Below are positions 14,724 through 34,556 of a stretch of DNA of 64,000 nt, piece by piece. The translations under genes and the position numbers were made by a program. Numbering within the stretch: position 1 is the first letter of the stretch; the number at the start of each line of letters is the position of its first letter. This DNA is from Hypericibacter adhaerens. Its GTDB lineage: Bacteria; Pseudomonadota; Alphaproteobacteria; Dongiales; Dongiaceae. The DNA is taken from contig NZ_CP042582.1 of the NCBI RefSeq assembly GCF_008728835.1, positions 5,315,001-5,379,000 of the forward strand, in the 5' to 3' direction. The notes under the pieces are model-generated. The model worked only from the letters and a program-made list of their open reading frames with translations, was not told the DNA's origin and searched no databases.

Positions 14724-14784
14724 ACAGCCTTACGACGGGGAATCGGTGCGGCTTGGCCGGACGGTCAGCCTGCCTGCCTCGCCC

Positions 14785-16377
14785 TCACGCTTCGGACGCC
14801 GCCCCCGACCAGGGCGAGGCGATATCGGCCATGCCGCGATTGCGGCCCTTGGCCGGATCCCGCATGACCGCGTTGGGCGAGGCGAACAGCACCGGGTGCA
14901 GGTCGAGCGCCCCGCGCCGGACGGTGAGGCTGCGGTCGATCGCGGCCGCGACCTCAGCCGGCAGGCGCTCGTCCAGCGTGACGCCGGCGCCGCTGGCATC
15001 GAGGCGCGGGCAATGGAACGCCGCCTCCAGATCCATGCCGAAATCGACCAGGAAGGACAGGACCTGGGTCACGGCGGGCAGGATGCGCCGGCCGCCCGAG
15101 GCGCCCAGCGCCGCCCAGGGCTGTCCGGCCTTGCGCAGGATCGTCGGCACCATGTTGGAGAGCGGCCGCTTGCCCGGTGCGATCGAGTTCGGCCGGCCCG
15201 GGGTCGGGTCGAACCACATGATGCCGTTGTTGAGCAGGACGCCCGTCTCCTCGAGCAGGACCTTCGAGCCGAAGCGCGACAGCAGGGTCTGGGTCAGCGC
15301 CACCATATTGCCGTGGCGGTCCACCACCGAGAGATGGGTGGTGCAGGAGGCGTTGCCGGGATCGCGACGGGCGGCGCCGTCGCCCGCATCGCCCATGGTC
15401 TGGAACCGCTCGCGATAGGCGCGGTCGAGGGCCGAGGCATAGGCGCGGTAGGTCTCGGGCCCCGGCGCCGAGGGCGCGAACCCTTCGATATCCTCGCTCA
15501 GCAGCGCCAGGCTGCGGGCGAGCGTGGGGCCCGCGGTCAGGCCCGGCGGCGCGAACACCTCGATGTCGCGATAGGCGATGGGGAGCGCCGGCAGGATGCG
15601 CGCGCGGTAGCCGGCGAGATCGGCCAGCGAGAGCTTGCCGCCGAGCTTCTGCAGCTCGGCCACGAGGGCCCGCGCCGTCTCGCCCTCGTAGAACTCGCGC
15701 GCCCCCGCCTTGGCGATGCGGCGCAGCGTGACGTCGAGCTGGCCCAGCCCCAGGCGCGGCGGCGGTCCTTCGGCCGCGGCGGGCGCCGGCGGCAGGCCGC
15801 CCGGCAGATAGACCCGGCGCGCGCCCGCATTCTCCGCGAGCTCGCGCGCCGCCACGCCGATCGAGAGCATCGCATACCAGTCGATCGGCAGGCCGGTCTG
15901 GGCGAGGCCGATGGCGGGCTCGAGCAGCCGCGCCCAGGGCCGCGTCGCGAAGGCCTCATGGGCGGCCCGCATCCCTTCCACATAGCCCGGCACGGCGACC
16001 GAGAGCGGTCCCTTGACGTTGCGGTCGCCCTTGACCGCGGGCCAATCGAACAGTGCCTGGGTGGTGCCGCCGGTCAGCGGATAATCGGCCGGATCGAGCG
16101 CCTGGGGCGCCACCATGCCGAACTCGACGCACTGCACCTCTTTGGCGCCCGCCATCGCCACCAGCATGTAGCCGCCACCGCCGATGCCGCTCATCCAGGG
16201 TTCGAGCACGCCGACCGCGAAGCCGGCCGCGATCGCGGCATCGACCGCATTGCCGCCCTCGGCCAGCACCGCGGCACCGGCCCGCGCCGCGGTCAGGCTC
16301 TGCGACACGACGATGCCGCCGTCGCTCGTCACCGCCTTCTTCACAAAGCTGCCGGCGGGGCGAAAGGAATCGGTCAT
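14785..16377 (-). CDS. ggt: Gamma-glutamyltransferase-family protein (no signal peptide)
   Basis: A 530-residue Ntn-hydrolase of the gamma-glutamyltranspeptidase family, which transfers or hydrolyses gamma-glutamyl groups of glutathione and gamma-glutamyl amines. The self-cleavage site and catalytic threonine are in CTTHLSVVD (Thr346), giving the large and small chains, and PLSNMVP replaces the common PLSSMxP. The start at 16377 (AAGGA site) yields an N-terminus MTDSFRPAG with no signal peptide, unlike secreted GGTs, so a cytoplasmic enzyme is likely. It lies 84 nt downstream of the coenzyme M operon on the same strand and upstream of an amine importer; either link is possible. Confidence 0.85.
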   Translation of the reverse strand: MTDSFRPAGSFVKKAVTSDGGIVVSQSLTAARAGAAVLAEGGNAVDAAIAAGFAVGVLEPWMSGIGGGGYMLVAMAGAKEVQCVEFGMVAPQALDPADYPLTGGTTQALFDWPAVKGDRNVKGPLSVAVPGYVEGMRAAHEAFATRPWARLLEPAIGLAQTGLPIDWYAMLSIGVAARELAENAGARRVYLPGGLPPAPAAAEGPPPRLGLGQLDVTLRRIAKAGAREFYEGETARALVAELQKLGGKLSLADLAGYRARILPALPIAYRDIEVFAPPGLTAGPTLARSLALLSEDIEGFAPSAPGPETYRAYASALDRAYRERFQTMGDAGDGAARRDPGNASCTTHLSVVDRHGNMVALTQTLLSRFGSKVLLEETGVLLNNGIMWFDPTPGRPNSIAPGKRPLSNMVPTILRKAGQPWAALGASGGRRILPAVTQVLSFLVDFGMDLEAAFHCPRLDASGAGVTLDERLPAEVAAAIDRSLTVRRGALDLHPVLFASPNAVMRDPAKGRNRGMADIASPWSGAASEA

Positions 16378-16461
16378 GGGACATCCTTGGGGCTCTGGGG
16401 AAATGCGGGCGACAGGGTAGCGCCCCACGCCGCGAAAACCAGCCCGAGGATCTGAAGTCTG

Positions 16462-17793
16462 CTACAGCTTTCGCGCCAGCTCGCCGACGACCTGGACCGG
16501 CGCGAAGACCGGCGAATAGGGTGGCGCGTAGGCGAGATCGAGCTCCGCCAGATCGTCCGCCGTGAGCTTCGCCCAGATGGCGGTGGCGGCGATGTCGATA
16601 TATTTATCGACGCCGTCCGGCCCCACGGCCTCCGCCCCCAGGAGACGCCCGTCCCGCCGGTCCACCAGCAGCCAGCCGTCGAGCATCCGGGAATTGGGCA
16701 TGTAGCGGGCCCGGCTCGGCATCTGGGCATGGACCGGGACCGGATCGAATCCGCTCCGCCGCGCCTGCTCGGCCGAGAGCCCGGTGCGCGCCACCGCCAG
16801 GTCGAAGACCTTGAAGATCGCGGTGCCGAGAACGCCGGGAAAGCGCGCCTGACCGCCGGCGAGGTTGGTGCCGGCGACCCGGCCCTGGCGATTGGCGATA
16901 TCGCCCAGCGGATACCAGACGGGCTTGCCGGAGACGACGTGACGCGCCTCCGCGCAATCCCCGGCGGCATAGGCACCCGCGATGCCGGTGCGCATCGCGG
17001 CGTCGACCGCGATGGCACCCGTTTCCCCGAGCTTCACGCCCGCGGCGGCGGCCAGATCGGTCCGCGGCCGGACGCCGACTGCCATCAGCACGTGATCGGC
17101 GGGGAGAACGATCCCGTCCGAGAGCCTGACACCCTCCTTGCCGACCTGCGCCACCGACGCGCCGAGCACCACCTCGACGCCATGCTTGGCGAGATGCTCG
17201 CCCACGATACCGGCGACAGCGGGATCGAAGGCGGGCAGCAGCCGGGGCATCGCCTCGACGAGCGTCACCCTGAACCCGCGATGGCGCAGGGTTTCGGCCA
17301 TTTCCAGGCCGATATAACCGCCGCCGACGATGACGGCGCGTCCGGGCGGCGAGAGCAAGGGCTGCAGCCGGTCCGCATCATGGAGGCTGCGCAGCGGCAG
17401 CACCGGCGGCGCGTCCGTCGTCACCGTGATCGGCGGCATGAAGGCCTGGGCGCCGGTCGCGAACAGGATCAGGTCGAAGGGCTCGGCCGACCGGCTGCCG
17501 GTGTCGAGCGCGGTCAGATGCGCGCGCCGCGCGTCGAGATTCACCTCGTCGACGCGATGGCGGACCCGGAGATCGATCCCGTCGGCGCGGAAACGCTCGA
17601 CGCTGCGCGCGATCAGCTTATCGCGCGGGATCGCCGCCGGATCGCCCAACCAGTAGGGAAGGCCGCAGGCGGAATAGGAAACCTCGGGCTCGTCCTGCAG
17701 GACCAGGATGTCGAGCTCCGGCCGCCGCCGCCGGGCTGTGGCGGCGGCCTTCATCCCGGCGGCGACCCCGCCGACGATCAGGACCCGCGTCAC
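16462..17793 (-). CDS. CoA-disulfide-reductase-like flavoprotein, last gene of the CoM operon
   Basis: A 443-residue FAD/NAD(P)H flavoprotein: FAD-binding VLIVGGVAAGMKAA, single redox cysteine Cys43 in YSACGLPYWLGD, NAD-binding VIVGGGYIGLEMAE (about 158-171), YAAGDCAE near 290, and the family tail LAYAPPYSPVFAPV. The single cysteine and tail place it with CoA-disulfide reductases and NADH oxidases rather than two-cysteine reductases. The start is GTG at 17793, 14 nt after the upstream stop. In this operon it could reduce CoM disulfides, catalyse the reductive last step of CoM synthesis, or cleave a CoM thioether; these roles are inference. Confidence 0.85.
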   Translation of the reverse strand: MTRVLIVGGVAAGMKAAATARRRRPELDILVLQDEPEVSYSACGLPYWLGDPAAIPRDKLIARSVERFRADGIDLRVRHRVDEVNLDARRAHLTALDTGSRSAEPFDLILFATGAQAFMPPITVTTDAPPVLPLRSLHDADRLQPLLSPPGRAVIVGGGYIGLEMAETLRHRGFRVTLVEAMPRLLPAFDPAVAGIVGEHLAKHGVEVVLGASVAQVGKEGVRLSDGIVLPADHVLMAVGVRPRTDLAAAAGVKLGETGAIAVDAAMRTGIAGAYAAGDCAEARHVVSGKPVWYPLGDIANRQGRVAGTNLAGGQARFPGVLGTAIFKVFDLAVARTGLSAEQARRSGFDPVPVHAQMPSRARYMPNSRMLDGWLLVDRRDGRLLGAEAVGPDGVDKYIDIAATAIWAKLTADDLAELDLAYAPPYSPVFAPVQVVGELARKL

Positions 17794-17807
17794 GATCGGC
17801 CGGCCCC

Positions 17808-19244
17808 TTACTGGCCGTGCTTCGCCCAATGGGCCCCGAAGATCGTCTCGGGCGTGATGGCCCGGGGCTTCAGCGGCCGCGAGACCCAGGTCAGGTTCAT
17901 AAAATGCCGGGCGCTGACATTCTCGGTCGTGATGTTGCCGCCCCAGCTGCCGCAGGCGAGCGATAGCGTGTAGGGCATGCCGTTGCGCAGGCTGCCGGCG
18001 CCCTCGTTCAGGTTCTGGTTGACCATGACCCGCGCCGTCTTGGTGCGCGTGGCGAGCGCCTCGATATGGGCCTCGTTCGTGGTGTGGATGCCGCAGGTAT
18101 GGCCCAGCCCCTGATAGCCGATGATGCGGTTGACCCAGTCGATGGCGCCGCCGATCCCGCCCTGATAGCGATAGAGCGCCAGCACCACCGACAGCTTCTC
18201 GCCGGAGAACGGGTGATCCGGCCCCGCGCCGTCCTCCTCGACGATGAGGAAGCTGCGGTCCTCGGGCAGCGCGAAGCCCGCCAGCTCGGCGATCCGTCCC
18301 GCCGGCTTCGCCACCACGTCGATGGTGGGGATATGGCCGCCATCCGGCCACATCGCCCGCGCCAGGCGCGCCTTCTGCTCCGGCGTGCAGAGATGGCCGC
18401 CGGCGGCGATCAGCTTGTCGCGCAAGCTGTCATAGATCCGGGCCTCGGCCACCACCGCATTGTCGGCGAGGCAGCTCGTGGCATAGTCGAAGGTCTTGGC
18501 CCGCGCGATCATCAGGGCCGCGTCGTCGAGATCGGCCGTCTCGTCGACGACATGGACGGAATTGCCCACGCCGACGCCATAGGCCGGCGTGCCCGAGCTG
18601 TAGGCGGCCTTGACCATGGCGGCACCGCCGGTGGCGACGACGAGATCCGAGAGCCGCATCAGCGCCTCCGTCTTGGCGATCGAGGGCTGCTCGATGACCT
18701 GGATCAGGTCCTCCGGCGCGCCCACGCTGCGGCAACCCTGGCGCATCGCCTCGACCACCGCGATCGAGGTCCGCTTGGTGCGGGGATGCGGCGAGACGAC
18801 GATGGCGTTGCGGGCCTTGAGCGCGCCCAGCGCCTTCACCGGCGGGGTCGCATCGGGGCCGGTGGTGGGAATGAGCGCCGCGATCACGCCGACCGGCTTG
18901 GCGATCTTGACCAGGCCTTTCTCCGGGATCTCCTCCACCACCCCGCAGGTCTTGATGCTGGCCATATCCGCCAGCGTTCCCATGACGCGGTTCTCGAACT
19001 TGGCGATCTTGTCCTGATAGCGGCCGAAGCCGCCCTCATCGACGGCCAGACGCGCGAGCGCCTCCCGGTTCTTGAACACCTGCCAGCCCACGGCGGTCAC
19101 GAGCGCATCGGCCTCTGCCTGGCCATAGTTCTGGATCGCCTGCTGGGCACGGCGCGCGCGGGCGACCATGGCGGCGATCTCGGCTTGCGCTTCCTCCGGC
19201 GTCTGCTTGGCCGGCTTGTCGAGCTTGGCGGTGACGGCGCTCAT
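17808..19244 (-). CDS. CoA-acylating aldehyde dehydrogenase, sulfoacetaldehyde dehydrogenase (SauS)-like
   Basis: A 478-residue member of the CoA-acylating ALDH branch (EutE/AdhE/SauS), which converts an aldehyde plus CoA and NAD(P)+ to an acyl-CoA. The catalytic thiol is Cys258 in YATSCLADN; VGVIAALIPTTGPDATP and GVGVGNSVHVVDE are typical of the branch. The overall sequence looks closest to acylating sulfoacetaldehyde dehydrogenases. In a CoM operon, plausible substrates are sulfoacetaldehyde or 2-oxoethyl-CoM formed from a C2 epoxide. The gene follows an ADP-forming acyl-CoA synthetase by 36 nt, a pairing also seen for sulfoacetate use. Substrate choice is inference. Confidence 0.8.
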   Translation of the reverse strand: MSAVTAKLDKPAKQTPEEAQAEIAAMVARARRAQQAIQNYGQAEADALVTAVGWQVFKNREALARLAVDEGGFGRYQDKIAKFENRVMGTLADMASIKTCGVVEEIPEKGLVKIAKPVGVIAALIPTTGPDATPPVKALGALKARNAIVVSPHPRTKRTSIAVVEAMRQGCRSVGAPEDLIQVIEQPSIAKTEALMRLSDLVVATGGAAMVKAAYSSGTPAYGVGVGNSVHVVDETADLDDAALMIARAKTFDYATSCLADNAVVAEARIYDSLRDKLIAAGGHLCTPEQKARLARAMWPDGGHIPTIDVVAKPAGRIAELAGFALPEDRSFLIVEEDGAGPDHPFSGEKLSVVLALYRYQGGIGGAIDWVNRIIGYQGLGHTCGIHTTNEAHIEALATRTKTARVMVNQNLNEGAGSLRNGMPYTLSLACGSWGGNITTENVSARHFMNLTWVSRPLKPRAITPETIFGAHWAKHGQ

Positions 19245-19280
19245 GGGGTGTTTCCTTTCAGGGTCCGTGGTGAGCCAGGG

Positions 19281-21383
19281 TCAGGGATGGGAGGCAATCG
19301 CGGCGGCTGCCGGCGTCGTGGCGGACGCCCGCATGCGCAGATCGACGATGGCGAGACCGTCGGGCGTGGCGATGACCGGATTGGCATCCAGCTCTTCGAG
19401 CCAGGCGGCGCCGGCGACCCAGCGCGACAGCGCGGCGATGAGGCGGGCCAGCGCTTGGCGATCGATGGCCGGCCGGCCGCGCCCGCCCTCCAGCAGGGAT
19501 CGGCCCTTCAGCCCGTCCAGCATGGCGAGCGCCTCGGCCTCGTCGACGGGCGCCAGGCGCAGGGCGACATCGTTCAGGGCCTCGACCCAGATGCCGCCGA
19601 GGCCGGCCATGATCACGGGCCCGAAATTGGCGTCGCGCCGAGCACCCAGAACGAGCTCGATCCCCGGACGTGCCTGGCGCTGCAGCAGCACCGTGGACGT
19701 TCCCAGCCGTGCGGCGACCTGGTCATAGGCCGCACCCACGGAATCGGGCGTGGCGAGGCCGAGATGCACGCCGCCGCTGTCGGACTTGTGGATCAGGCCG
19801 GCCCGCTCCGCCTTCAGCACGACCGGCAGGCCCAGCGCCTCGGCGCCCGCGATCGCGTCGCGGCGCGAACGCGCCAGTTTCCAAGGAACGACCGGAAGGC
19901 CGGCCTCGGCGAAAAGCCCGAAGGCCTGATCGGAAGACAGCCAACCGCCCTCGCCCACCGTCCGGGGACGGGCGACCGGGCGGTCGACCGCCGGCCGCGC
20001 CGGCGCCCTGGCGACAGGCCGGGTCAGCGCGAGAAGCTGGGCGGTTCGCGCCGGCCAGCCATGGCAGGGAATGCCGGCCGCGAGCAGCCGCTGCCGGTTC
20101 TCCGCGGCGGTGGCCGGCGCCACCCAGCAGACATGGACCGGTTTCTTCGAGCCGCGCGCGCGGGCTGCGGCGACGGCGGCGATGACGCGGTCCGTCACCT
20201 CCGGCATCAGCGCCGAGCGCTGCAGCAGCACCGGCACGACGCCGTCCACCTCGTCGCTCTCCAGCAGGGCCTCCAGGCTGATGCCGTACATCTCGGGGAA
20301 GCGGCGCCATTCGGTGGTCACGTCGACGGGATTGGCCGCCGAGCCATAGGCGGGCAGCGCGGGACGGATCGCCGATTGCAGCGCTTCCGACAGGCCCGGC
20401 ACCCGCAGGCCCTGCGCTTCCATGAGATCGGCGAGCTCGACGCCGGTGCCGCCGGAATTGGTGATGACGGCGATCCGCCGGCCGGTCAGCGGCGGCTGGC
20501 GGTCGAGCGTCGCAGCGAGATCGAGCAGCGTCAGCCCGTCTTCCACCAGATGGATGCCGGCCTGGCGCAAGGCCGTCAGCGTCACGGCGGTATCGGTGGC
20601 GAGGGCCGCGGTGTGGCTCGCGGCCGCGCGCCGGCCTGCCTCCCCGCGCCCCGTCTTCAGGACGACGATCGGCTTGCGCGGGGCGATCTCCGCGGCCGCC
20701 TCGAAGAAGCGGCGGCCATCGCCGATCGATTCGAGCAGCATGGCGATGACCCGCGTCTCCGGATCGCGGCCGAAGGCGCGGAGCATGTCGGTCTCGTCGA
20801 TGTCGGCCTTGTTGCCGCAGGCGACCACGCGGGAGAAGCCGATGAGATCCTCCTGGGAGCGCGTGAAGGCCGCCATGCCGTAGGCGCCGCTCTGGGTATA
20901 GAGCGCGATGCCGCCCCGCGCCGGCATGCCCAGCCCGAGCGAGGCGTTGAGGCCTGCGGACGCGCTGATGACGCCGAAGCAGTTGGGGCCGACGATGCGC
21001 ACGCCCCCGGCCCGCGCCGCCTCGAGCGTGCGCCGCTCGAGCGCCTGGCCCCCGGCCCCGGTCTCGGCGAAGCCGCCGCTGATGATGACGGCGAGAGGCA
21101 CCGCCGCCTTGGCGCAATCGGCGAGGATCGCCGGCGCCTCGGCTGGCGGCGCCACGATCACGGCGAGATCGGCGCCGCCGGGAATGGCGGCGAGGCTCGG
21201 ATAGCCGGGCCGGCCCAGGATCTCCGTCAGCTTCGGATGCACCGCGACGACCTCGCCGCGAAAGCCGGAATCGGCTGCGGTGAGGTTCTGCATGAAGAGA
21301 TGGCCGAGCTTGCCCGGGGTCGCCGAGGCGCCGACCAGGGCGACGCGGCGCGGCGCGAACAGCGCTCGCTCCCAATCGCTCAC
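19281..21383 (-). CDS. ADP-forming acyl-CoA synthetase (fused alpha-beta form)
   Basis: A 700-residue NDP-forming acyl-CoA synthetase. Order of domains: CoA-binding Rossmann domain (1-130, VALVGASATPGKLG), succinyl-CoA-synthetase-like domains with the phospho-histidine in AAASHTAAL (about 240), and a C-terminal ATP-grasp domain (480-690, LPVVLKAERAGLIHKSD and ELDANPVI). It makes or uses acyl-CoA reversibly with ADP/ATP. The ATG overlaps the upstream stop (ATGA). Neighbouring acylating dehydrogenase suggests they work on the same acid/aldehyde pair, for example sulfoacetate, or a carboxylate derived from CoM-bound C2 units; acetate or acetoacetate activation is also possible. Confidence 0.85.
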   Translation of the reverse strand: MSDWERALFAPRRVALVGASATPGKLGHLFMQNLTAADSGFRGEVVAVHPKLTEILGRPGYPSLAAIPGGADLAVIVAPPAEAPAILADCAKAAVPLAVIISGGFAETGAGGQALERRTLEAARAGGVRIVGPNCFGVISASAGLNASLGLGMPARGGIALYTQSGAYGMAAFTRSQEDLIGFSRVVACGNKADIDETDMLRAFGRDPETRVIAMLLESIGDGRRFFEAAAEIAPRKPIVVLKTGRGEAGRRAAASHTAALATDTAVTLTALRQAGIHLVEDGLTLLDLAATLDRQPPLTGRRIAVITNSGGTGVELADLMEAQGLRVPGLSEALQSAIRPALPAYGSAANPVDVTTEWRRFPEMYGISLEALLESDEVDGVVPVLLQRSALMPEVTDRVIAAVAAARARGSKKPVHVCWVAPATAAENRQRLLAAGIPCHGWPARTAQLLALTRPVARAPARPAVDRPVARPRTVGEGGWLSSDQAFGLFAEAGLPVVPWKLARSRRDAIAGAEALGLPVVLKAERAGLIHKSDSGGVHLGLATPDSVGAAYDQVAARLGTSTVLLQRQARPGIELVLGARRDANFGPVIMAGLGGIWVEALNDVALRLAPVDEAEALAMLDGLKGRSLLEGGRGRPAIDRQALARLIAALSRWVAGAAWLEELDANPVIATPDGLAIVDLRMRASATTPAAAAIASHP

Positions 21384-22396
21384 GGTGCCCCGTCCCGGCC
21401 CACGAACAGGCTCGGCGCCCCGCCGCTATGGAGGAACAGCAGCGTCTCGTCCTCGCGGTAGCGCCCGCCCGCCGCCAGGGCGCGATAACCGGCAAGCGCC
21501 TTCGCCGTATAGGTCGGATCGAGCAGGACCCCCTCGTGGCGGGCGGCCAGCGCCAGGACGCTCTCGCCCTCGGGCGAGGGGATGCCGTAGCCGGCGCCGA
21601 TGAAGCCGTCATGGATCGTCACGTCACCCGGCGCGAGGGACCATCGCTGTCCGAGCCGTTCCGCGGCTTCGGTGGCCAGGGCCGCGACGCGCTGGCGGGC
21701 TTCCACGGCCGGCCGGCTGACGGTCACGCCCTCGACGCGCCATCGCACGCCGCAGAGATGCGAGCCCAGAAGCCAGCCGGCCATGGTACCGCCCGAACCC
21801 ACCGCCATCAGGACGCAATCGGGGTCGATCCCGGTCTCGGCGCATTGCGCCATGACCTCCGCCACGGCCAGCACATGGCCGATCGCGCCCAGCGCGCAGG
21901 CCCCGCCGCGCGGAACGACATAAGGACGGCCGCCTTCCGCCTGAATCCGCCGGGCTTCCGCGTCGAGGGCACGATCGACGGAGCTGCGGTCGCTCTCGCC
22001 GGTGAAGCGGGTCTCCGCACCCCACAGCACACTCAGCCGGTGATTGCCTTCGAGCCGCGCCGGCGCCGTGCCCCAATAGACGGCGACCATCCGCAGGCCG
22101 GCGAAGCTCGCCGCCGCCGCCGTCGCCCGCACATGGTTCGACAGCGGCCCGGCGCCGGTCACCACCGTGTCGGCGCCGGTCTCGAGGGCGTCGGCGATGA
22201 TGAGCTCGAGGCCGCGAACCTTGTTGCCGCCGAAGCCGAAAGGGATGAGATCGTCGCGCTTCATCCAGAGCGAAGGCCCGCCCAGCGCATGGCCCAGCGC
22301 CGGCACCGGCAAGAGCGGCGTCGGCGCGGGGATCAGCGCCAGCCGCGGCAGCTCGCGCGGGTCGGCGACCTGCTCGAGCGGCTTCGATGCCCTCAC
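21380..22396 (-). CDS. xcbE: PLP-dependent enzyme of the D-cysteine desulfhydrase family, XcbE1-like (CoM biosynthesis)
   Basis: A 338-residue fold-type II PLP enzyme. The Schiff-base lysine is Lys59 in FGFGGNKVRGLE, the phosphate loop is GSGGTMAGWLLG (about 195), and the overall pattern (PTPLLPVPALGHALGGPSLWMKRDDL) matches D-cysteine desulfhydrase/ACC deaminase and L-cysteate sulfo-lyase. In Xanthobacter the equivalent protein XcbE1 belongs to the bacterial CoM pathway and is linked to its thiolation step. The start is GTG at 22396 overlapping the previous stop (GTGA), with GGGGAG before it. Alone it would be annotated as D-cysteine desulfhydrase; context with ComA and two aspartase/fumarase enzymes makes the CoM role much more likely. 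Confidence 0.85.
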   Translation of the reverse strand: MRASKPLEQVADPRELPRLALIPAPTPLLPVPALGHALGGPSLWMKRDDLIPFGFGGNKVRGLELIIADALETGADTVVTGAGPLSNHVRATAAAASFAGLRMVAVYWGTAPARLEGNHRLSVLWGAETRFTGESDRSSVDRALDAEARRIQAEGGRPYVVPRGGACALGAIGHVLAVAEVMAQCAETGIDPDCVLMAVGSGGTMAGWLLGSHLCGVRWRVEGVTVSRPAVEARQRVAALATEAAERLGQRWSLAPGDVTIHDGFIGAGYGIPSPEGESVLALAARHEGVLLDPTYTAKALAGYRALAAGGRYREDETLLFLHSGGAPSLFVGRDGAP

Positions 22397-23748
22397 CGCT
22401 CGCTCCCCAGCACCTGATCCACCAAGGCCCCGCATTGAGCCGTCCGCGAGGTGGCGTCGAACAGGCGGTCGATCTCCCCCCGCGACAGATGCGCGGAGAT
22501 CTCGGGATCGGCTTCGACCGCCTGACGGAGCGGGCGCCCGGCGCGCGCCGCTTCGGTGGCGGCGCGATGCATGAGCCGGTGCGCCGTCTGCTTGCCCAGC
22601 TTGGCGGCCAGCGTCAGCATGACGGCTTCCGAATAGATATGGCCGTTGGAGGCTTCGAGGTTGCGGCGCATGCGCTCGCCGCGCACCTCGAGATGCTCGA
22701 GCAGCGTGGCGGTCAGGCTCAGCGCTTTGGCCGCCGCGAGCGTCAGCTCCGGCACCGCATGCCACTCGATCTTCCAGGAACGCCCGTCGCGCTCATGGGC
22801 ATGGGGCAGGCTTTCCAGCAGCGCGCCGGCATTGGCGCGGACCACGCGGGAGAGCGTGCCGATATGTTCCGAGAGCTCGGGGTTGCGCTTGTGCGGCATG
22901 GTGATGGAGCCGATCTGCTCGGTCGTGGCGCCCTCGCCCAGCTCGCCGATCTCGTCGCGCTGCAGCGAATAGACCTCGTGGCCGATACGGTCGGCGGTGC
23001 CCGACGCCAGCGCCAGAACCTGAGCCCATTCGACCAGCACGTCCCGGCTCGCGGTCCAGGAGGTCGCGGGCGGACGCAGCCCGAGCCGGGTACAGAAGGC
23101 GCGCTGGACCTCGAGCGCCCGAGGCCCCAGGGCCGACAGGCTGCCCACCCCGCCGCAAAGCTGGCCGATATCCATGCGCTGCGCGGTCTCGTCGAAGCGC
23201 TGGCGGTGGCGGCGCAGCTCCGCGAGCCAGCCGGCCGCCTTGAAGCCGAAGGTGATGGGCAACCCCTGCTGGCCATGGGTGCGCCCGGCCATCACGGTAT
23301 CGCGATGCTCGCGGGCGAGCCGGGTGGCGGCGGCGATGGCGCGATCGAGATCGGTGAGGATGAGGCCGCGCGCCTCGCGCAGCGCCAGCATCAGCCAGGT
23401 ATCAGTGATGTCCTGGACCGTGGCGCCGAAATAGAACCATTCGCCGGCGGCCGCCGGGCAGCGCCGCCGCATCGCCTCGATCAGGCCGGCCGTCGAATGG
23501 CCGCTCGCCTCGTAGCCGGCGCGGTATTCGGCGAAGAACGCGTCGTCGAGCTCGACCGTCCGGCAGGTGGCGGCGACCTGCCGGGCGCTTTCGGCCGGGA
23601 TCAGGCCGAACTCGCCCTGAACCTCCGCCAGCACGGCGAGGATCTCGAGCCAGCGCCGCGTGCGCGGGACGTCGTCGAAGATCTGGCGCAGCGCCGGCGT
23701 CGACCAGGCGCCGCCATAGACGCGCGAGCCGAAGGACCAGCCCGTCAT
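22393..23748 (-). CDS. Aspartase/fumarase-superfamily enzyme, XcbD1-like (CoM biosynthesis)
   Basis: A 451-residue member of the aspartase/fumarase superfamily, resembling adenylosuccinate lyase: FGATVQDITDTW (about 100), GRTHGQQGLPITFG, and the signature SITMPHKRNPELSE carrying the mobile catalytic loop. A purine role is unlikely because it sits in an operon between another superfamily member and a D-cysteine-desulfhydrase-like enzyme, the same company kept by XcbC1/XcbD1/XcbE1 in Xanthobacter. By gene order I match it to XcbD1, associated with the decarboxylation step after sulfoacrylate forms; the C/D assignment is inference. ATGA overlap with the upstream gene. Confidence 0.8.
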   Translation of the reverse strand: MTGWSFGSRVYGGAWSTPALRQIFDDVPRTRRWLEILAVLAEVQGEFGLIPAESARQVAATCRTVELDDAFFAEYRAGYEASGHSTAGLIEAMRRRCPAAAGEWFYFGATVQDITDTWLMLALREARGLILTDLDRAIAAATRLAREHRDTVMAGRTHGQQGLPITFGFKAAGWLAELRRHRQRFDETAQRMDIGQLCGGVGSLSALGPRALEVQRAFCTRLGLRPPATSWTASRDVLVEWAQVLALASGTADRIGHEVYSLQRDEIGELGEGATTEQIGSITMPHKRNPELSEHIGTLSRVVRANAGALLESLPHAHERDGRSWKIEWHAVPELTLAAAKALSLTATLLEHLEVRGERMRRNLEASNGHIYSEAVMLTLAAKLGKQTAHRLMHRAATEAARAGRPLRQAVEADPEISAHLSRGEIDRLFDATSRTAQCGALVDQVLGSER

Positions 23749-25262
23749 CGGCCGCCCGCTCCCATCGCTTCGGCTTCGGTCAGCAGGCGCCGCCGGGCGG
23801 CCTCCTGGGCCGACCGCGCCTCTTCCAGCCAGCGCCGACAGGGCGTGAGCGCGTCGCCCAGCTCGCGCAGCGCCGCCGCCAGCTCTTCCGGCGCGGCACC
23901 GCCGACGTCCTGGCGCGCCGTCACGCCGGCCCAGGGATCGAGAGCCGCCTCGAGAAAGCCGTCCGGCAGCCGCGAGGCTTCGAGCCCCGCTTCCGCGCAG
24001 GCCGCCCGCAGCTTGTCGAGGGTCAGGCTCGACAGGCTGCGGCCTTCCGCTTCCAGCCGGCGGACCAGCCCGCCCACCAGGCGATGCGCCGCCCGGTAGT
24101 CGAGCCGAAGCGCGAGGCAGAGGCGCTCGGCCAGATCGGTGGCGCAGGCCGTGCCGTCGCTCAGCGCCAGCTCGGCCTGGTCGCTCTCGAAGGTGAGCTC
24201 CTCGACGATCTCGGCCATCAAGCTTGCCGCCTGCGCCACGCTGCGCAGCGCCGCCGGCACCGCCTCGTAGGGCAGCATCCGGTTGTCCATCTGGCCCGAG
24301 GGCGTGCGGCCGCTGGCGGCGACACCGGCCTGCTCGCCGATCAGCCGGTTGGCGAGGCCGCGCAGATAGGACAGCGCGAAGGGGTTGCGCTTCTGCGGCA
24401 TGATCTTGCTGGCGCGCGCGTGCCGGTCCGCGACTCTCACGAGACCGAACTCGGCGGTGGCGAAGATCATCAGATCCTCGGCCAGGCGGTCGAGCCCGAC
24501 GGCGGCGGCCACGGCGAGCCCCATGGCCTCGATCGCGAGGTCGGGCTGCCACATCGCGTCGCGCGCATGGCGCACCGGCGCCGCGAAGCCGAGACGGCGG
24601 GCCTGCGCCGCGCGATCCTGGAGCGCGACCGAGCCGTTGCTGCTGCCGCAACCCGCGGGACAGCGATCGATGCGCTCGTAAAGCGCCTTCACCCGCTCCA
24701 GGTCGCGCAGCGCCGGCCAGGCGAAGGCGGAGAGATAATGGCCCAAGGTGGTCGGCTGGGCGATCTGCAGATAGGTATAGTCGGGCATCAGGCTGTGGCT
24801 GTGGCGCGACGCGACTGTCGCGACCGACTGGCCGAAATCGAGCAGGGCCGCGCCGAGCTCGAGCAGCCGGTCGCGCAGCAGAAGATGAAAGGCCGTGGTC
24901 AGTGCTTCGCGGCGCGCCCGCGCGGTGCCGAGCCATCCCGCCGCCGCCGTCCGCCGGGCCAGCCAGGCTTCCCGGTTCGTGTAGAGATCGCCCAGCGCCG
25001 CCTCGGGCGTGAAGGCCGTGCCGGAGCGGTGCAGCTCCAGCAGGGCCTGGACGAGCGCGCGCGCGGCCCCGGGGGGAATGACGCCCTGCTCGCTCAAGGT
25101 CAGGCAATGGGCGAGATCGACCAGGCCGAGAGGATCGAAGAATTCGGCTTGTCCGGCGAGCTCGGCGGCAAAGATGGCGGTGAGACCCGCCGACGGCGGC
25201 TCGGCGAGGCGCCCGCCGATCTCGAGCACCGATTCCATCGAGCCCGCCCGCGGCTCAGCCAT
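23745..25262 (-). CDS. Aspartase/fumarase-superfamily enzyme, XcbC1-like (CoM biosynthesis)
   Basis: A 505-residue aspartase/fumarase-superfamily protein with argininosuccinate-lyase-like features: [39 protein letters not shown] and the signature [17 protein letters not shown] long C-terminal extension (about 400-505) rich in Ala and Glu is unusual for argininosuccinate lyase. It directly follows phosphosulfolactate synthase with an eight-nucleotide overlap, the position expected of XcbC1, which eliminates phosphate from phosphosulfolactate to give sulfoacrylate. Start ATG at 25262; an internal ATG at 25238 is possible. Specific reaction is inferred from context. Confidence 0.8.
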
Positions 25263-26163
25263 GGCCCGGCGGCTCCCGGATGACAATTCCATCGACGGGA
25301 GGAGGCTCGGCGGGCTCGGTCTGGGCGGGATTCCAATGGCCGCTCCTCTGTTCCCGCGTCGCGATCTGCGTCAGCGTCTCGTAGCGCAGGCCCGATCGCA
25401 GCGCCTCCAGCGCCAGGGTCTCGCGGGCTGCGATATTGCCGAGATTGACGTTGGCGCCGAAGCGCCCCACCAGCGCCGCCTGCTGGTCCTTGCGCGGCGC
25501 CTCCCAGACCAGGCGATCGATGGCGGGACCGACGCGCCGTGTCACGTCCTCCAGGAAATCGCCGCGCAGCGCGCCGCTGTCGTCATAGATCCCGATGCCG
25601 CGGCCCGATTCGCGCGCCTCGACGATCACCCAGGCGGCACCCCATTCGATATCCTTGAGCGCCTGCTCCGCGAGCGTGCCGGCATCCGGCTGCTGCGCGG
25701 GGTCCTTCTTGCCCACCTCCGTGATGGCGACCAGCCCGGCATCGCAGGCGCAGGCGATCACCCGTTTCCGGCGGTCGGGCGGCAGGCTGATGGTGCCGTC
25801 CGAGATCTCGACCGCGCGGAAGCCCAGCTCGCGCGCCCGGCGCATATAGACCCGGCAATGCTGCTGGACGATCGCCGCCTCCAGCAGCGTGCCGCCCGGA
25901 TAGGTCAGGACATCGTGCTCCGCCAGCAGCTCGAGCTTCTGCCGGAGCAGCGGCAGCGACATCAGCGCCGAGGTGCCGAAGGCGAACTTCCAATGATCGA
26001 TATGCGGGGCCGCGAGCTCCAGCATGTCGGCCGTCTCCATGCGGCCGAGGCCCGTATCGATCACCATGGTGATGCCGTGCGCGCGCGGGCGCTGCAGCCG
26101 CCGGTCGACGGCGGCATCCAATCCCCACACGCCCTGCCAGGGACGTTCCGGTCTAGACAACAC
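25255..26163 (-). CDS. xcbB: Phosphosulfolactate synthase, ComA/XcbB1 type (first step of CoM biosynthesis)
   Basis: About 302 residues, adding sulfite to phosphoenolpyruvate to give phosphosulfolactate. The ComA hallmarks run in order: [51 protein letters not shown] and [13 protein letters not shown], a TIM barrel with phosphate-binding glycines and the EISDG and EVGKK acidic/lysine pairs. No ATG is near; GTG at 26163 (AGGAG ten bases upstream) is my choice, TTG at 26160 the alternative. It overlaps the preceding unknown gene by 11 nt. In bacteria such genes mark sulfolactate or CoM synthesis; here the xec genes in the same operon point to CoM. Confidence 0.92.
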
Positions 26164-27112
26164 GACGCACCAGCTCCTGGAGGGCTTTCTCGACCATGGC
26201 GAAATCCGATCCCCAGGGCACCGTGACGACATTGCCCTGGCATTCGGTGTTGAACTCGAGCAGGCAGCATTTGAGGATGGTGAGCTCGTTGCGCGCGCCG
26301 GCGATGGCGCGAGGGCACATCTCGATGCGCGGCGGCTCGTCGCCGTAATAGTGGCGATGGAACTGCAGGCTGCGCTCGCAGCCGATCAGCACCCAGTCCT
26401 CCCGCTGCGCCGGCCGCTCGTCGAGAAAATGCAGCGGCGCCCCCAGATCGTCCAAGCCGCCGGAGCGGCAGGGAACGAGGAAGGCCTTCGGATGGGTCGT
26501 CGCGGCCAGGTCGCGCAGCTCGATGCGCTCGAGCTCGAGCCGGATCGGCGGCAGGTCCGCATAGGTGAGGACATGCTCGATCAGATGGAACAGCTTGGGC
26601 GGTTCCGGCGGCGCTACCTCGACCACCCGGATCACCAGGGGATCGGGATGATGGATGAAATTCACATGGTCGTATTTGCCCTGGCAGATGAGCGTGCCGT
26701 CAGGTCCGACCCCGCTGCGGGCGGCAAGAGCCGCCAGCGCCGAGCGGTTGGCGCAGTCGGTCTCCGGATCGGTGACGAAGCGGCAGCTCTCGGGCAGGGC
26801 CAGCACCTCGACATGCTCGATCGGCGCGAACAGCGCCTCCCGGTTCGTGGCGCCGATGGCGACCAGCGCGTAAGCGTCGTTCGCCCCGCGCAGCACGATC
26901 ACGTTGGTCCGCCGGTAGGCCTCGCGGCCCAGCAGATGCGCCGTGATGGCCGCCTGCGTCATCGCGCCCTCATAGGGCTGCACGCTGACGCCGCGATAGG
27001 GCAGCTCCACGACATTGCGGCGATCGCGGAGCGAGGGCCATTTCGGTCCGTCGGCGGCGTCCGCCGCCGGGCGGGAAGGCATCCGCAATGTGGGCCGGCG
27101 CGCGGACATCAC
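26153..27112 (-). CDS. Conserved protein of unknown function in the CoM operon
   Basis: A 319-residue soluble-looking protein that I do not recognise. Visible points: a central segment [17 protein letters not shown] with paired histidines, a [20 protein letters not shown] stretch suggesting a linker and helix, and several scattered cysteines ([29 protein letters not shown]). No signal peptide or membrane helix. The start is GTG at 27112, overlapping the CoA-transferase stop (GTGA), or the adjacent ATG at 27109. Being locked between CoA-transferase and phosphosulfolactate synthase by overlaps, it is a good candidate for a missing or accessory CoM function such as sulfite or sulfur delivery; this is speculation from position. 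Confidence 0.75.
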
Positions 27113-27948
27113 GCCACCGCGAAGCGCCGGCCGCGATCGTCGGGCCGGATTTCATGCTCGTGAACCCGCAGCGGATCGAGACGGCGAATGAGCGCCACGG
27201 TCTCGCGGTCCGGCGCCGGCAGGACCGCCACGGGCCCGGCGGTCCGGACCTCGAAGCCGGTGTTCTCCCGGACCTCCTCGACCGTGATGTCCGGGTAGAG
27301 GGCCTGAAGCCGGGCATGACCTTCGGGGTCGAAATCGAACAGGCCGAGATCGGTCACCAGCCATTCGGGTCCCTGGCCGCGATGGCCCAGCTCGCGCCGG
27401 TCGCGGCCATCGGCGGTGCGATGACCGAGATTGGTGACGAAGTCGCAGACCTCGACCAGGCGGAAGCGCCGCTTCCCTGCGGAATCCGGCGGCGAACGGT
27501 GCCCCGTCGTCCAGAGCGTCAGATGCTGCACGTCGCAGGAGAGGTTGCAGCCCCCGCCGCCGCCCGGCAGCTTGAGCGCGAGCTTGCTCTTCCCCAGCCG
27601 CGTGACGTTGCAATTGCCCCATTTGTCGATCTGCAGGCCGGAGAGGAACATGCGTCCCATGCGTCCGGCGGCGGCCAGGTCGAACAGCTCCTCGATGTCG
27701 AGGGAGGACGAGGCGCCGCGATCCATGACCCAGTCGTTCGAGGTGGGGGCCAGAAAGGGAGGATCGGGATCCACGCCATAGGTGGCGCCGGCGATCAGCA
27801 CCATGTTCGGCGCGTGGGTCCGCTTGGCGACATGCATGGCGAGCTGGACGAGCGGCGATCCGAAGCCATGGAAGGCGAGCTTCCCGTCCTCGATGGTGCG
27901 CGCGATGGCGGCGATCATGAATTCGCCCAGGCTGCAATCGTGGATCAC
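27109..27948 (-). CDS. CoA-transferase subunit B (GctB/IpdB-like)
   Basis: A 279-residue beta subunit of a family I CoA-transferase, the type that includes glutaconate and 3-oxoacid CoA-transferases. Landmarks: GFGSPLVQLAMHVAKRTHAPNM, FLSGLQIDKWGNCNVTRLG, the glycine-rich PGGGGGCNLSC segment and the tail EEVRENTGFEV. The start is GTG at 27948 (GTGA overlap with subunit A, GAGGTG upstream), giving [10 protein letters not shown]. With subunit A it should move CoA from an acyl-CoA donor to a carboxylate; acetoacetate, the product of the xec pathway, is the natural candidate, giving acetoacetyl-CoA for thiolysis. Substrate is inference. Confidence 0.85.
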   Translation of the reverse strand: MIHDCSLGEFMIAAIARTIEDGKLAFHGFGSPLVQLAMHVAKRTHAPNMVLIAGATYGVDPDPPFLAPTSNDWVMDRGASSSLDIEELFDLAAAGRMGRMFLSGLQIDKWGNCNVTRLGKSKLALKLPGGGGGCNLSCDVQHLTLWTTGHRSPPDSAGKRRFRLVEVCDFVTNLGHRTADGRDRRELGHRGQGPEWLVTDLGLFDFDPEGHARLQALYPDITVEEVRENTGFEVRTAGPVAVLPAPDRETVALIRRLDPLRVHEHEIRPDDRGRRFAVA

Positions 27949-28931
27949 GCCGTCACCTCTTCGCGATAGAGGGACATCCAGGCCGCTTCGCCCGCGGACC
28001 ACGAGGCCAGGCGCCGGCGCGTGGCCTCGCCGATGCGCGCCAGATAGGCGGCATGATCGGGACAGCCATGGACGAAGGGCTGGAGATAGTCGGCCGAGAA
28101 ACGCTCGGGGCCCCCGCGGGCCGCCTCGTAATAGAGCGCCGTGTGCGGCCGGTCATAGGCATAGAACGGGTAGCAGGCCGTGGGATGGGCGCCCAGGGGC
28201 AGCTCCGCCAGGGCGGTGACGTAGAAATAGGGGATCGTGATGCCGCCCAGCTCGATCAGCCGCTCGGTGGACACGATCGTCTCCACCGAGGCGATCACCG
28301 ATCGCGACGCCTTGGCGAAGAGCAGGTCCATCACCGGCGGACCCTCGATGCGCAGGTTCCCCTGGGCGTCCCCGTACTGGGCATGGAGGATGGCCACGTC
28401 CGGTGCCAGCGCCGGCACCAGCAGCAACTCCTGGCCGGTGTAGGGACAAGTGATCGTCTTGTATTCCGGGTGAAGCTCGGGAAAGGAGGTGCCGCGCACG
28501 GAGCGGACCGGCATGAAAGGCAGCCCGAGCACGGCCGCGCGGAGCTGCTGGACCAGCGTGTAGCAGCAGCTGTCGTCGACCTTGACCTCGCCGCTCTCGC
28601 AGGCGCGCCGATAGTTGGGCGCGATCCCGAAATCCTGCTCGAACCCGACATAGCTTTCGGAGGAGCAGGAGACGGCACCGCCGCCGCACAGCAGGTCGAT
28701 ATCGATGCCATGGGCCGAGCCGACCGCGCGCAGGCCGCGGATGCGCCGGCGCAGGAGGGCGCGCAGGATCGCCATCGGCTCGCGCGAGGAGAGCCCGCCG
28801 CCCACGGCGATCATGTCGCCGTCCTTGACCAGCGCCGCGAGGTCTTCCAGCCGCGTCCGCTTGTCGGGGCGCGTATGGATCCCGTCGTCCCGGCGCGGCC
28901 CCTCCCGATGCGGCGTGCGAGGGTCGTTCAT
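27945..28931 (-). CDS. CoA-transferase subunit A (GctA/IpdA-like)
   Basis: A 328-residue alpha subunit. After a polar N-terminus of about 25 residues it shows the family start KTRLEDL-type helix, [23 protein letters not shown], the [14 protein letters not shown] segment and [22 protein letters not shown], all typical of glutaconate-type CoA-transferase alpha chains. It overlaps both xecE (ATGA) and subunit B (GTGA), ensuring equal amounts. Together with the ADP-forming synthetase further down it gives the operon two independent means of making CoA thioesters from pathway acids. Confidence 0.85.
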
Positions 28932-29695
28932 ATCGCGGTCATGCCCCCATCCACGGCGAAGGCGGCACCGGAGACGAAGGCGGCCTGGTCGCTCAGGAGG
29001 AAGACGACCGCTTCGGCGATGTCCTCGGGGTTGCCGAAACGCCCGATCGGGTATTTCGCCAGGCGCCGTGCCTGGGTTTCCGGGCTGGTATCGCTGCCCA
29101 GGAGCTGCTGGCCCATGCCGGTGGAAGCGACGGTGCCGGGGCAGACGGCATTGACCCGCACGCCCTTGCCCGAATAGTCCGCCGCCATCTGGCGCGTGAG
29201 GTTCACGATGGCGCCCTTGGCCGCGCAGTAGGCGGCCATGGTCGGGATGCCGACGACACCGGCGACCGATCCGAAATTGACGATCGAGCCCTTGCGCCGC
29301 GCCAGCATGCCGGGCAGCACCGCCTTCGAGGCGAGGAAGGTGCCGGTCACGTTCACCGCCATGATCCGGTCCCAGGCCTTGGGATCGGCCTCGTGGACGG
29401 AGCCGAAGCCCGCGATGCCGGCATTGTTGACGAGGCCCGAGAGCGGGCCGACGGCCTGCCCCGCCGAGTCGAGCGCGGCGGCGATGCCGGCGGCGTTGGT
29501 CACGTCGGCGCCGAAGCCGGCCGCCTCGTGTCCCTGCTTGCGCAAGGCGCCGGCCGAGCGACCCGCCAGATCGCCGTCGAGATCGATCAGCGCGACCTTG
29601 GCGCCTTCCCGCACGGCCGCGTTGGCCACGGCCAATCCGATTCCCGCGGCACCGCCGGTGATGGCGATGACCTGTCCTTTCAACCGATCCGACAT
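28928..29695 (-). CDS. xecE: S-2-hydroxypropyl-CoM dehydrogenase (XecE-like SDR)
   Basis: A 255-residue classical SDR oxidising S-2-hydroxypropyl-CoM to 2-oxopropyl-CoM. NAD-binding [14 protein letters not shown] at about 90-93 and the Ser-Tyr-Lys set (Ser143, Tyr156, Lys160) are present. It is strikingly like the Xanthobacter S-specific enzyme ([34 protein letters not shown]) and retains Arg211 and Lys214, the residues known to hold the CoM sulfonate in that enzyme, at the same numbers. 48 nt after the R-specific partner. A generic FabG annotation would miss the CoM clamp. Confidence 0.95.
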
Positions 29696-29743
29696 GGGCG
29701 TCCTTTCATGGTGCCGAGCTTTTCCGAAACCTGTTCCCTGCCG

Positions 29744-32067
<2,324 letters not shown>

Positions 32068-32142
32068 CTATTCTCCTTGCGGCCCGATCGGGCGGGCCTT
32101 TCGTGATGATTCGAAATCAGGGGGATCATGGGAGGCTCCGCC

Positions 32143-32340
32143 TCAGCCGCTGCAGCAGGGGCAGCCCTTGACGGTTCCCTGCTCCCAGGGGTGAGGCTCG
32201 GGCTTCGTTCCCGACGCGGGTTGGGCGCGCCGGCTGCCGCAATTCGAGCAGGCCCATTCGCGCGGCGGCTCGGTATGAGCCATCACCATTCCCTTGAAGC
32301 GATGGCCGCAATCCGGGCATTGCAGGGTGTAGACGGGCAT
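32143..32340 (-). CDS. Small zinc-ribbon protein between xecA and xecC
   Basis: A 65-residue FmdB-type zinc ribbon: MPVYTLQCPDCGHRF with CxxC, then WACSNCGSRRAQ with a second CxxC, and a C-terminal GCPCCSG that adds further cysteines. A longer frame starts at 32394, but AAGGAGAGG lies just before the ATG at 32340. It sits between xecA (66 nt) and xecC (78 nt) on the same strand. A role as zinc donor or chaperone for the zinc-dependent XecA, or as a small regulator, is possible; neither can be shown from the sequence. Confidence 0.85.
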   Translation of the reverse strand: MPVYTLQCPDCGHRFKGMVMAHTEPPREWACSNCGSRRAQPASGTKPEPHPWEQGTVKGCPCCSG

Positions 32341-32406
32341 GACCTCTCCTTCGCCGCCCCGGGGCGCTGGCCCCGGAGCGGCGCGGTATGCCAATCGGCC
32401 TGACGA

Positions 32407-33534
32407 TCAGGCGGCTTTGCGGTTGCGGATCTCGTCGCGGACGAGCTTCGCGCCTTCGACCATGGCGTGGAGCTTGTCCTTGGCGATGTAGCGCTGCAGC
32501 AGGATCAGCCCGCAATCCGTCGTGACGCCGAGCCGTTCGGCCGGGATGACGCGCAGGAGCTTGCGGATCCGGTCGGCGACCTGCTCGGCCGTCTCCGTGA
32601 TGGTGCTCTTGACGTCGATCACGCCGGCCCAGAAGTCGACGCCATCGGGCAGCGGGAATTCCTTGAAGGTGTCGAGGCCGGAAAGATCGTCCGACCGACG
32701 CCCGCAGGTCTCGAGATTCAGCACGTTGATATGGGCGCCATAGGCCTTCGGCACGATCGAGCGGGTCGCCGAGGGCGCGGCCGCGTCGAGCTTGCGCTTG
32801 GTGAGATCGAACACCTCGCCGGCCTTGGCCGTCTCGTCCGGGTAATAGGCCGGCGTGCCGCCCCAATTGCCCCAGCAGACATGGACGATGACCTTGGCGT
32901 TCTTCACGCCCTCGACCATCGTGTTGAAGGCCTCGATCGCCCAGTCCTCGTAGAAGTAGGGCCAGGTGAACTCGTCGAACTGGATGAAGTCGATGCCGAG
33001 CGCATCGACCTCGAGCACGTCCTGGTTGATCGCCTTGGCGATGGCGAGCGCGCGGTCGCGGCTGTTGCTGTAATGCAGGTCGTTGGTGCATTGCGCCAGC
33101 ACCTGCACGCCCGTGTACTGGATCTTGGTGGGCTTCTTCGTGGCACGGCGGAGCGCCTTGGCCTGCTCGACCATGATCGCGCCGTGGCGACGGACCGCCT
33201 GCTCGAGGGTGCCGGCATGGAGGCGGCTATAGATCGGGAAGCCGAGATGGCCGCCCTTCAGGTCGTAGCCGAGGCGGCGCAGGTAGTAGTAGACGGCCGC
33301 ATCGGCGTAGTTGTCGCCGTGGACGCGACCGTCGGCGATGATGTCGAGCCCCGCGATCTCCTGGTCGAGCGCGACAGCCCCGATGGCGTCCTCGAGAGCC
33401 TCGCGGTTCATCGAGTCCGGCGGCTCCTGATTGCCGGTGAAATGGCGTCCCCAGGACGCATCCCACCAACGCGGATTCGGATAATTCCCGACCATGGAAG
33501 TCGGGATAAGAATCTCTTGACCCCTGATTTTCAT
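32407..33534 (-). CDS. xecA: Epoxyalkane:coenzyme M transferase, XecA (2-hydroxypropyl-CoM lyase)
   Basis: A 375-residue zinc enzyme of the MetE-like barrel family that opens short epoxides with the thiol of CoM. The zinc ligands of the Xanthobacter enzyme, His218, Cys220 and Cys341, are present at identical numbers (VHVCWGNWGG and TTDCGL). The N-terminus IPTSMVGNYPNPRWWD and the DEFTWPYF segment are typical. First gene of the operon, 40 nt after the inferred transcript start, with GGGAGG five bases before the ATG. It lacks the folate domain of methionine synthase, so a MetE annotation would be wrong. Confidence 0.96.
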   Translation of the reverse strand: MKIRGQEILIPTSMVGNYPNPRWWDASWGRHFTGNQEPPDSMNREALEDAIGAVALDQEIAGLDIIADGRVHGDNYADAAVYYYLRRLGYDLKGGHLGFPIYSRLHAGTLEQAVRRHGAIMVEQAKALRRATKKPTKIQYTGVQVLAQCTNDLHYSNSRDRALAIAKAINQDVLEVDALGIDFIQFDEFTWPYFYEDWAIEAFNTMVEGVKNAKVIVHVCWGNWGGTPAYYPDETAKAGEVFDLTKRKLDAAAPSATRSIVPKAYGAHINVLNLETCGRRSDDLSGLDTFKEFPLPDGVDFWAGVIDVKSTITETAEQVADRIRKLLRVIPAERLGVTTDCGLILLQRYIAKDKLHAMVEGAKLVRDEIRNRKAA

Positions 33535-33572
33535 GTCATCCTCCCGAGTTATTAATGGCTTATGCCCTTTTA

Positions 33573-33609
33573 TTGGTCAGACTGTATCTTAATTGATCAT
33601 AGTTGGTCA
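33573..33609. promoter_or_regulatory. Three phased TTGRTCA direct repeats
   Basis: TTGGTCA (33573-33579), TTGATCA (33593-33599) and TTGGTCA (33603-33609) are spaced by exactly 20 and 10 bp, placing all on one face of the helix. They overlap the inferred xecA promoter in an AT-rich island between the two divergent genes, so they are the best candidate sites for the DcmR-like regulator. Confidence 0.65.
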
Positions 33610-33610
33610 A
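33581..33610 (-). promoter_or_regulatory. Candidate sigma-70 promoter for the xec/xcb operon
   Basis: On the minus strand TTGACC (33610-33605) and TACAGT (33586-33581) are separated by 18 bp, matching -35 and -10 elements at five and four of six positions. Transcription would start near 33574, giving a 40-nt leader to xecA. The repeats at 33593 and 33603 overlap the spacer and -35. Confidence 0.5.
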
Positions 33611-33633
33611 ACATATTCTTTCTTGCCTCCGAC

Positions 33634-33654
33634 TTGCCTAGAATGGCAATTGCC
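33634..33654. promoter_or_regulatory. TTGCC-N6-GGCAA dyad with an extra TTGCC
   Basis: An inverted repeat TTGCC (33634-33638) and GGCAA (33645-33649), followed directly by TTGCC (33650-33654), lies just upstream of the regulator gene. It could be an autoregulatory site. Confidence 0.45.
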
Positions 33655-33711
33655 TCGGGCAGCGAATTTGCGTAGGGAGTGGCCGGCGTTGCGTGCAGCC
33701 AAGCGGGACTA

Positions 33712-34515: not shown

Positions 34516-34518
34516 AAC

Positions 34519-34556
34519 CGCCGCGAAGGCCGGCGGCGCGCGGCCTCGCCGCGGAA
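34519..34556 (+). terminator. Imperfect GC-rich hairpin after the regulator gene
   Basis: CCGCCGCGAAGGCC pairs with GGCCTCGCCGCGG with one irregularity, immediately after the stop codon. Only GAAAA follows, no T-run, so it is at best a weak terminator. Confidence 0.35.

Follow-up and report, generated by a model that had tools for sequence, protein, structure and literature searches.

A putatively acquired, Xanthobacter-type operon for coenzyme M synthesis and coenzyme M-dependent epoxide degradation in Hypericibacter adhaerens

Introduction

Can a single bacterial operon supply coenzyme M (CoM) and also spend it on the breakdown of epoxides? This question is raised by fifteen genes in a 64,000-nt stretch of the Hypericibacter adhaerens chromosome (contig NZ_CP042582.1, positions 5,315,001 to 5,379,000; the whole stretch analyzed is referred to here as the window). 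Epoxides such as propene oxide are toxic, and the reading favored here, with a probability of roughly 0.88, is that these genes form a self-contained cassette, gained horizontally, through which short aliphatic epoxides would be degraded with CoM in the manner of the Xanthobacter propene-oxide system.

Organization of the operon

The fifteen genes all lie in the same direction on the minus strand (16462-33534) and are read from 33534 to 16462 in the order xecA, zinc-ribbon gene, xecC, xecD, xecE, CoA-transferase alpha and beta subunits, xcbA (DUF7714), xcbB (ComA), xcbC, xcbD, xcbE, NDP-forming acyl-CoA synthetase (ACoAS), acylating aldehyde dehydrogenase, and CoA-disulfide-reductase-like flavoprotein (CoADR). 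Genes overlap by 4-11 nt at nine of the 14 junctions, and gaps of 14-78 nt separate the remaining five. The initial annotation of this DNA, which described fifteen minus-strand genes with mostly 4-11 nt overlaps, was thus right in both coordinates and strand; the overlaps are consistent with translational coupling of CoM supply and use. Parts recognized beyond that annotation are the zinc-ribbon gene, DUF7714, the acyl-CoA synthetase, the acylating aldehyde dehydrogenase, the CoADR-like flavoprotein, and a divergent MEDS regulator.

The regulator gene (33679-34515, plus strand) encodes an HTH-MEDS protein (MEDS and HTH_17 domains) with 57% identity to Xaut_4864, which lies upstream of xecA1 in Xanthobacter autotrophicus Py2. 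Between it and xecA is an AT-rich divergent promoter region (33535-33678; 44% GC) in which the repeat TTGGTCARAC occurs twice, at 33573 and 33603 (33573-33612), 30 nt apart; the pair is a possible candidate site for the MEDS regulator. The sequences upstream of the Py2 copies do not keep this repeat, the search there returning a lone match with one mismatch, and the repeat is therefore a lead only.

Two neighboring regions were also considered. A gamma-glutamyl transpeptidase gene (14785-16428) was rejected as a sixteenth operon gene, being found in the same place in an operon-free genome of the same genus and not in related clusters. On the other side, the genes for a CHASE2 adenylate/guanylate cyclase and, after it, a Na+/H+ exchanger that has a cyclic-nucleotide-binding domain (34652-39599) likely constitute a cyclic-nucleotide-controlled ion exchange pair.

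Enzymes of epoxide metabolism

The product of xecA (32407-33534), epoxyalkane:CoM transferase, is 76% identical to both Py2 XecA copies and 44% identical to EtnE of strain NBB4, and contains the His-X-Cys...Cys zinc site of XecA/EtnE proteins (H218-C220-C341). Between xecA and xecC, a position conserved in proteobacterial clusters, a 65-aa FmdB-type zinc-ribbon protein is encoded (32143-32340; Zn_ribbon_8 above cut-off, with homologues in Py2 and in loci L022-L027), which possibly delivers zinc to XecA. XecC, the 2-ketopropyl-CoM oxidoreductase/carboxylase (30484-32064), aligns across its whole length with the solved enzyme (1mo9; 835 bits), is 69% identical to the Py2 protein, and keeps the redox disulfide C86/C91 and the F504/H509 pair (C82/C87 and F501/H506 in Py2 numbering). 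In the XecC proteins from Methylocystis and a betaproteobacterial MAG (L023, L024 and L025), Tyr replaces the Py2 catalytic H506, and carboxylation in these proteins may differ from that in Py2.

The two short-chain dehydrogenases (SDRs) are identified by their best solved matches and by the residues of their sulfonate clamps, the roles of which follow the structural literature. XecD (29744-30487) best matches R-hydroxypropyl-CoM dehydrogenase (2cfc; 265 bits), is 53% identical to its Py2 counterpart, and conserves S142/Y155/K159 together with sulfonate-binding R152/R196 (Py2 numbering). XecE (28928-29695) best matches S-hydroxypropyl-CoM dehydrogenase (4gh5; 426 bits), is 83% identical to the Py2 protein, and keeps sulfonate-binding R211/K214 within an RRLAKY motif that the three Py2 copies all share. 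R211 has been lost from the XecE-like SDRs of the ethene oxidizers JS614 and NBB4, being T in ethene-type actinobacterial homologues, and XecE in the window is therefore of the propene-oxide type. The zinc ligands of XecA, the disulfide and Phe/His pair of XecC, and both sulfonate clamps had been read from the translations in the initial annotation, and all of these residues are in place.

CoM biosynthesis enzymes

All five proteins of the bacterial CoM pathway, XcbA-E, score above their curated NCBIfam cut-offs within this single cluster: XcbA/DUF7714 (26153-27112; NF052538, 493 bits against 150), the phosphosulfolactate synthase XcbB/ComA (25255-26163; TIGR03849, 315 against 280), the two aspartase/fumarase enzymes XcbC (23745-25262; NF052535, 806 against 575) and XcbD (22393-23748; NF052536, 695 against 600), and the PLP enzyme XcbE (21380-22396; NF052537, 534 against 450). 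Their identities to Py2 proteins are 80% for XcbA (to Xaut_5070), 71% for XcbB, 61-65% for XcbC, 72% for XcbD and 71% for XcbE. The pathway was established and completed in Py2, according to PMC12068725; the individual steps assigned here, with XcbC taking phosphate off phosphosulfolactate and XcbD catalyzing addition to sulfoacrylate, follow NCBIfam names, PMC8727900 and general background. The ComA-type synthase, paired aspartase/fumarase enzymes and PLP enzyme recognized earlier from the translations are placed in specific families by these scores. Best matches to purine/arginine lyases and FabG, which the initial annotation had named as evidence against itself, were not found: XcbC scores 806 bits with its own model versus 257 with ArgH, XcbD 695 versus 288 with PurB, and both SDRs best match hydroxypropyl-CoM dehydrogenases.

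XcbA has seven invariant residues (Y66, H149, K173, C215, D231, C266 and C282) and a confident AlphaFold model (pLDDT 93). A search of the PDB found no sequence relative, and assigning a function from the fold was abandoned because neither Foldseek nor VIA-align gave a convincing match, the best Z being about 6 with many unrelated folds tied. A DUF7714 family match also occurs in Methanosarcina acetivorans, which makes CoM via another route.

Accessory genes and proposed pathway

The CoA-transferase predicted earlier is present as alpha (27945-28931; CoA_trans domain, 80% identity to Xaut_5072) and beta (27109-27948; 77% to Xaut_5071) subunits. Downstream of xcbE lie the NDP-forming acyl-CoA synthetase (19281-21383; Pfam ATP-grasp_5/Succ_CoA_lig, 78% to Xaut_5066), the acylating aldehyde dehydrogenase (17808-19244; 67-70% identity to the JS614/NBB4 cluster homologues, with 70% to JS614) and the CoADR-like flavoprotein (16462-17793; 57% to Xaut_5065), whose substrate may be a CoM disulfide. 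The aldehyde dehydrogenase scores 501 bits with the SauS equivalog model (NF047625, cut-off 600) and the flavoprotein 371 bits with the CoA-disulfide reductase model (TIGR03385, cut-off 579), and since both fall below these cut-offs the equivalog names are withheld. Malonate semialdehyde (from 2-oxoethyl-CoM and CO2) closely resembles sulfoacetaldehyde and is thus a plausible substrate for the SauS-like enzyme.

Based on homology to characterized enzymes, ComA, XcbC, XcbD and XcbE (with XcbA) would convert phosphoenolpyruvate, sulfite and cysteine sulfur to CoM; XecA would use CoM to open the epoxide; XecD and XecE would oxidize the R- and S-hydroxyalkyl-CoM, respectively, to the ketone; and XecC would cleave the thioether, carboxylate the product and free CoM. 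Epoxides would in this way end up as beta-keto acids, which in the case of propene oxide means acetoacetate. We thus infer from the gene content that the operon would produce CoM and acetoacetate. Activation of acetoacetate would then fall to the CoA-transferase; other products (e.g., malonate semialdehyde from epoxyethane) or CoM disulfides would be handled by the acylating aldehyde dehydrogenase, acyl-CoA synthetase and CoADR, and the divergent MEDS protein would sense substrate and turn the operon on. With the CoA-ligase, aldehyde dehydrogenase and CoADR genes present, more than one set of end products is conceivable, and the operon offers a clean test bed for which accessory genes are needed.

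Probable acquisition and distribution

In another genome of the same genus (G001), the gamma-glutamyl transpeptidase and CHASE2 cyclase genes that flank the operon adjoin each other. Window positions 8115-16444 and 34651-41035 align to this genome at 81-86% identity, and between them its empty site has 76 nt, versus 18.2 kb in the window (16445-34650) comprising the operon and regulator. The simplest reading of this alignment is that operon and regulator were inserted together as a unit, and no integrase or transposase was recognized within the 18.2-kb insert. DUF7714 was chosen as the marker for relatives because the XcbC family search matched ordinary ArgH below cut-off nearly everywhere; it was found in none of the 95 other related genomes searched, a distribution that points to gain in Hypericibacter adhaerens and not loss elsewhere. 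Here the Xanthobacter-type CoM pathway would be packed into a single transferable unit on the chromosome of a lineage whose sampled relatives lack it and whose genome has no recognized diiron or pMMO enzyme for forming epoxides.

Epoxide source and alternative explanations

Searches of the genome for the diiron monooxygenase hydroxylase (PF02332; positive control, the Py2 plasmid) and for pMMO (PF02461; its positive control also worked) returned no match, either beside the cluster or elsewhere in the genome. Three P450 matches are present in the genome, and the epoxide could possibly come from the surroundings, from a P450, or from a plasmid-borne enzyme. This situation lends some weight to a role in detoxification instead of growth, in which the operon removes epoxides arriving from outside or from oxygenase side activities, as proposed for methanotrophs; there is published precedent for such clusters without an alkene monooxygenase (PMC11507031). 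The odds of this explanation are judged slightly short of even, as a full carbon-recovery set (CoA-transferase, ligase and both dehydrogenases) would be costly for that purpose alone, and an alkene monooxygenase could be a P450 or plasmid-borne. A lower standing is given to the idea that the cassette serves mainly epoxyethane and ethene, with XecC forming malonate semialdehyde from 2-oxoethyl-CoM, the SauS-like dehydrogenase yielding malonyl-CoA, and the CoA-transferase and ligase completing the route. Accessory genes for an aldehyde dehydrogenase, acyl-CoA synthetase, CoA-transferase and CoADR do belong to the ethene/vinyl chloride (VC) clusters of JS614 and NBB4 and to the Methylohalobius ethylene-response cluster (PMC11507031), but the propene degrader Py2 likewise has CoADR, ACoAS and CoA-transferase genes, and the two stereospecific dehydrogenases carry Py2-type sulfonate clamps while the ethene-type homologue lacks R211, making this specialization rather unlikely.

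The lyases, SDRs and flavoproteins all belong to large superfamilies and might be ordinary purine/arginine, FabG and disulfide-reductase paralogues clustered by accident. This can be given almost no credence, as the specific models and solved structures lead by hundreds of bits and the homologous gene order is kept across classes and phyla; for an operon with these conserved residues and family scores, chance is out of the question. Beyond the preferred propene-oxide-type cassette, a more speculative and improbable extension is a dual-range, monooxygenase-free epoxide scavenger, in which C3 epoxides would yield acetoacetate and C2 epoxides malonate semialdehyde and then malonyl-CoA through the SauS-like dehydrogenase, the host living on epoxides made by its neighbors, or detoxifying them, while not itself oxidizing alkenes.

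CoM biosynthesis genes without epoxide genes

XcbC-like loci in GTDB genomes were picked by two sequence patterns, and their neighbors were classified by BLAST clustering. In 55 of the 80 loci (within L028-L099, e.g., L029, L062 and L090), at least three xcb genes occur, and xecA, xecC, the CoA-transferases, ACoAS and the aldehyde dehydrogenase are all missing from the roughly 10 kb inspected on each flank. Their neighbors include AllG/DUF1116 (33), OsmC (30), an FAD disulfide-reductase-like protein (28), a radical-SAM protein (27), and nitrile-hydratase beta (25) and alpha (18). Nearly all of these loci fall together in the XcbD tree, where a single clade of 51 rows lacking epoxide genes (support 100/100) stands apart from the 23 epoxide-linked rows. 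The survey indicates that xcb genes reach well beyond alkene and methane oxidizers, in a separate clade. The xcb neighbors in Methylocystis iwaonis include a Nit6803 nitrilase and MSMEG_0567/0568 genes, which presumably represent the Nit1C cyanide-assimilation cluster. Methylocystis sp. Sn-Cys has both types of xcb cluster (L023 and L050), epoxide genes accompanying only one of the two. As CoM biosynthesis genes had until then been reported from methanogens and aerobic alkene users only (PMC11507031), the survey would open, and suggests, a second use in bacteria of CoM or of a CoM-like thiol; what the epoxide-gene-free clusters make may be CoM or a different compound.

Comparison with known systems

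Gene clusters that unite the synthesis of CoM with its use have been published before (PMC11507031, PMC8727900), and the gene arrangement of the operon is itself known from Py2 (Xaut_5065-5075), from the betaproteobacterial MAG locus L026, and, in similar form, from the methanotroph cluster of Toppings et al. 2024. The XcbD tree groups the window with the three Py2 copies (support 100/99), and its neighbors there are Methylocapsa, Methylocystis and betaproteobacterial clusters, which have epoxide genes as well. The betaproteobacterial MAG locus L026 has the identical complete gene order from xecA to CoADR, with the MEDS gene at the opposite end.

Among the closest known counterparts is the third cluster on Py2 plasmid pXAUT01 (Xaut_5065-5075), with the order CoADR-ACoAS-xcbD-xcbC-xcbB-xcbA-CoATb-CoATa-xecE-xecD-xecC, beside which pXAUT01 carries two other xecACDE-xcb clusters (Xaut_4865-4875 and Xaut_5047-5055). 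Py2 and window proteins are mostly 52-83% identical, and the same MEDS-HTH regulator stands beside Py2 xecA1. However, xecC of the third Py2 cluster is only a 130-aa remnant (Xaut_5075; L003 40299-40691), and the window operon is therefore the intact form of that cluster, having also the xcbE, aldehyde dehydrogenase and linked xecA genes that the Py2 cluster lacks. The functions spread in Py2 over three plasmid clusters, one adjoining the alkene monooxygenase, are united in the window in a single chromosomal operon with no monooxygenase.

Methanotroph etnE/CoM clusters (e.g., Methylohalobius crimeensis; PMC11507031) resemble the window in joining CoM synthesis to epoxide metabolism, in lateral acquisition, and in lacking an alkene monooxygenase, and those of Methylocapsa aurea (L022) and Methylocystis (L023/L024) are of the same kind. 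A methanotroph cluster of 13 genes and similar make-up was reported by Toppings et al. 2024, who proposed detoxification, and in the homologous Methylohalobius cluster ethylene induces 11 of 13 proteins (PMC11507031). In those hosts methane monooxygenase can form the epoxide, whereas the window genome has no pMMO, and a single hydroxyalkyl-CoM dehydrogenase is found among the 13 published genes (PMC11507031), against two in the window. The ethene/VC clusters of Mycolicibacterium NBB4, JS60, M. vinylchloridicum and Nocardioides JS614 (PMC8727900) share xcb genes, EaCoMT, CoA-transferase, acyl-CoA synthetase, CoADR, an XecC-like protein and the MEDS regulator with the window, but differ in their divergent arrangement, in roughly 35-55% identity for most proteins, in the presence of the alkene monooxygenase etnABCD, and in an S-HPCDH clamp that is not conserved. 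Set against these systems, the window operon is an unusually complete copy of one already described in Xanthobacter and in a small number of further bacteria.
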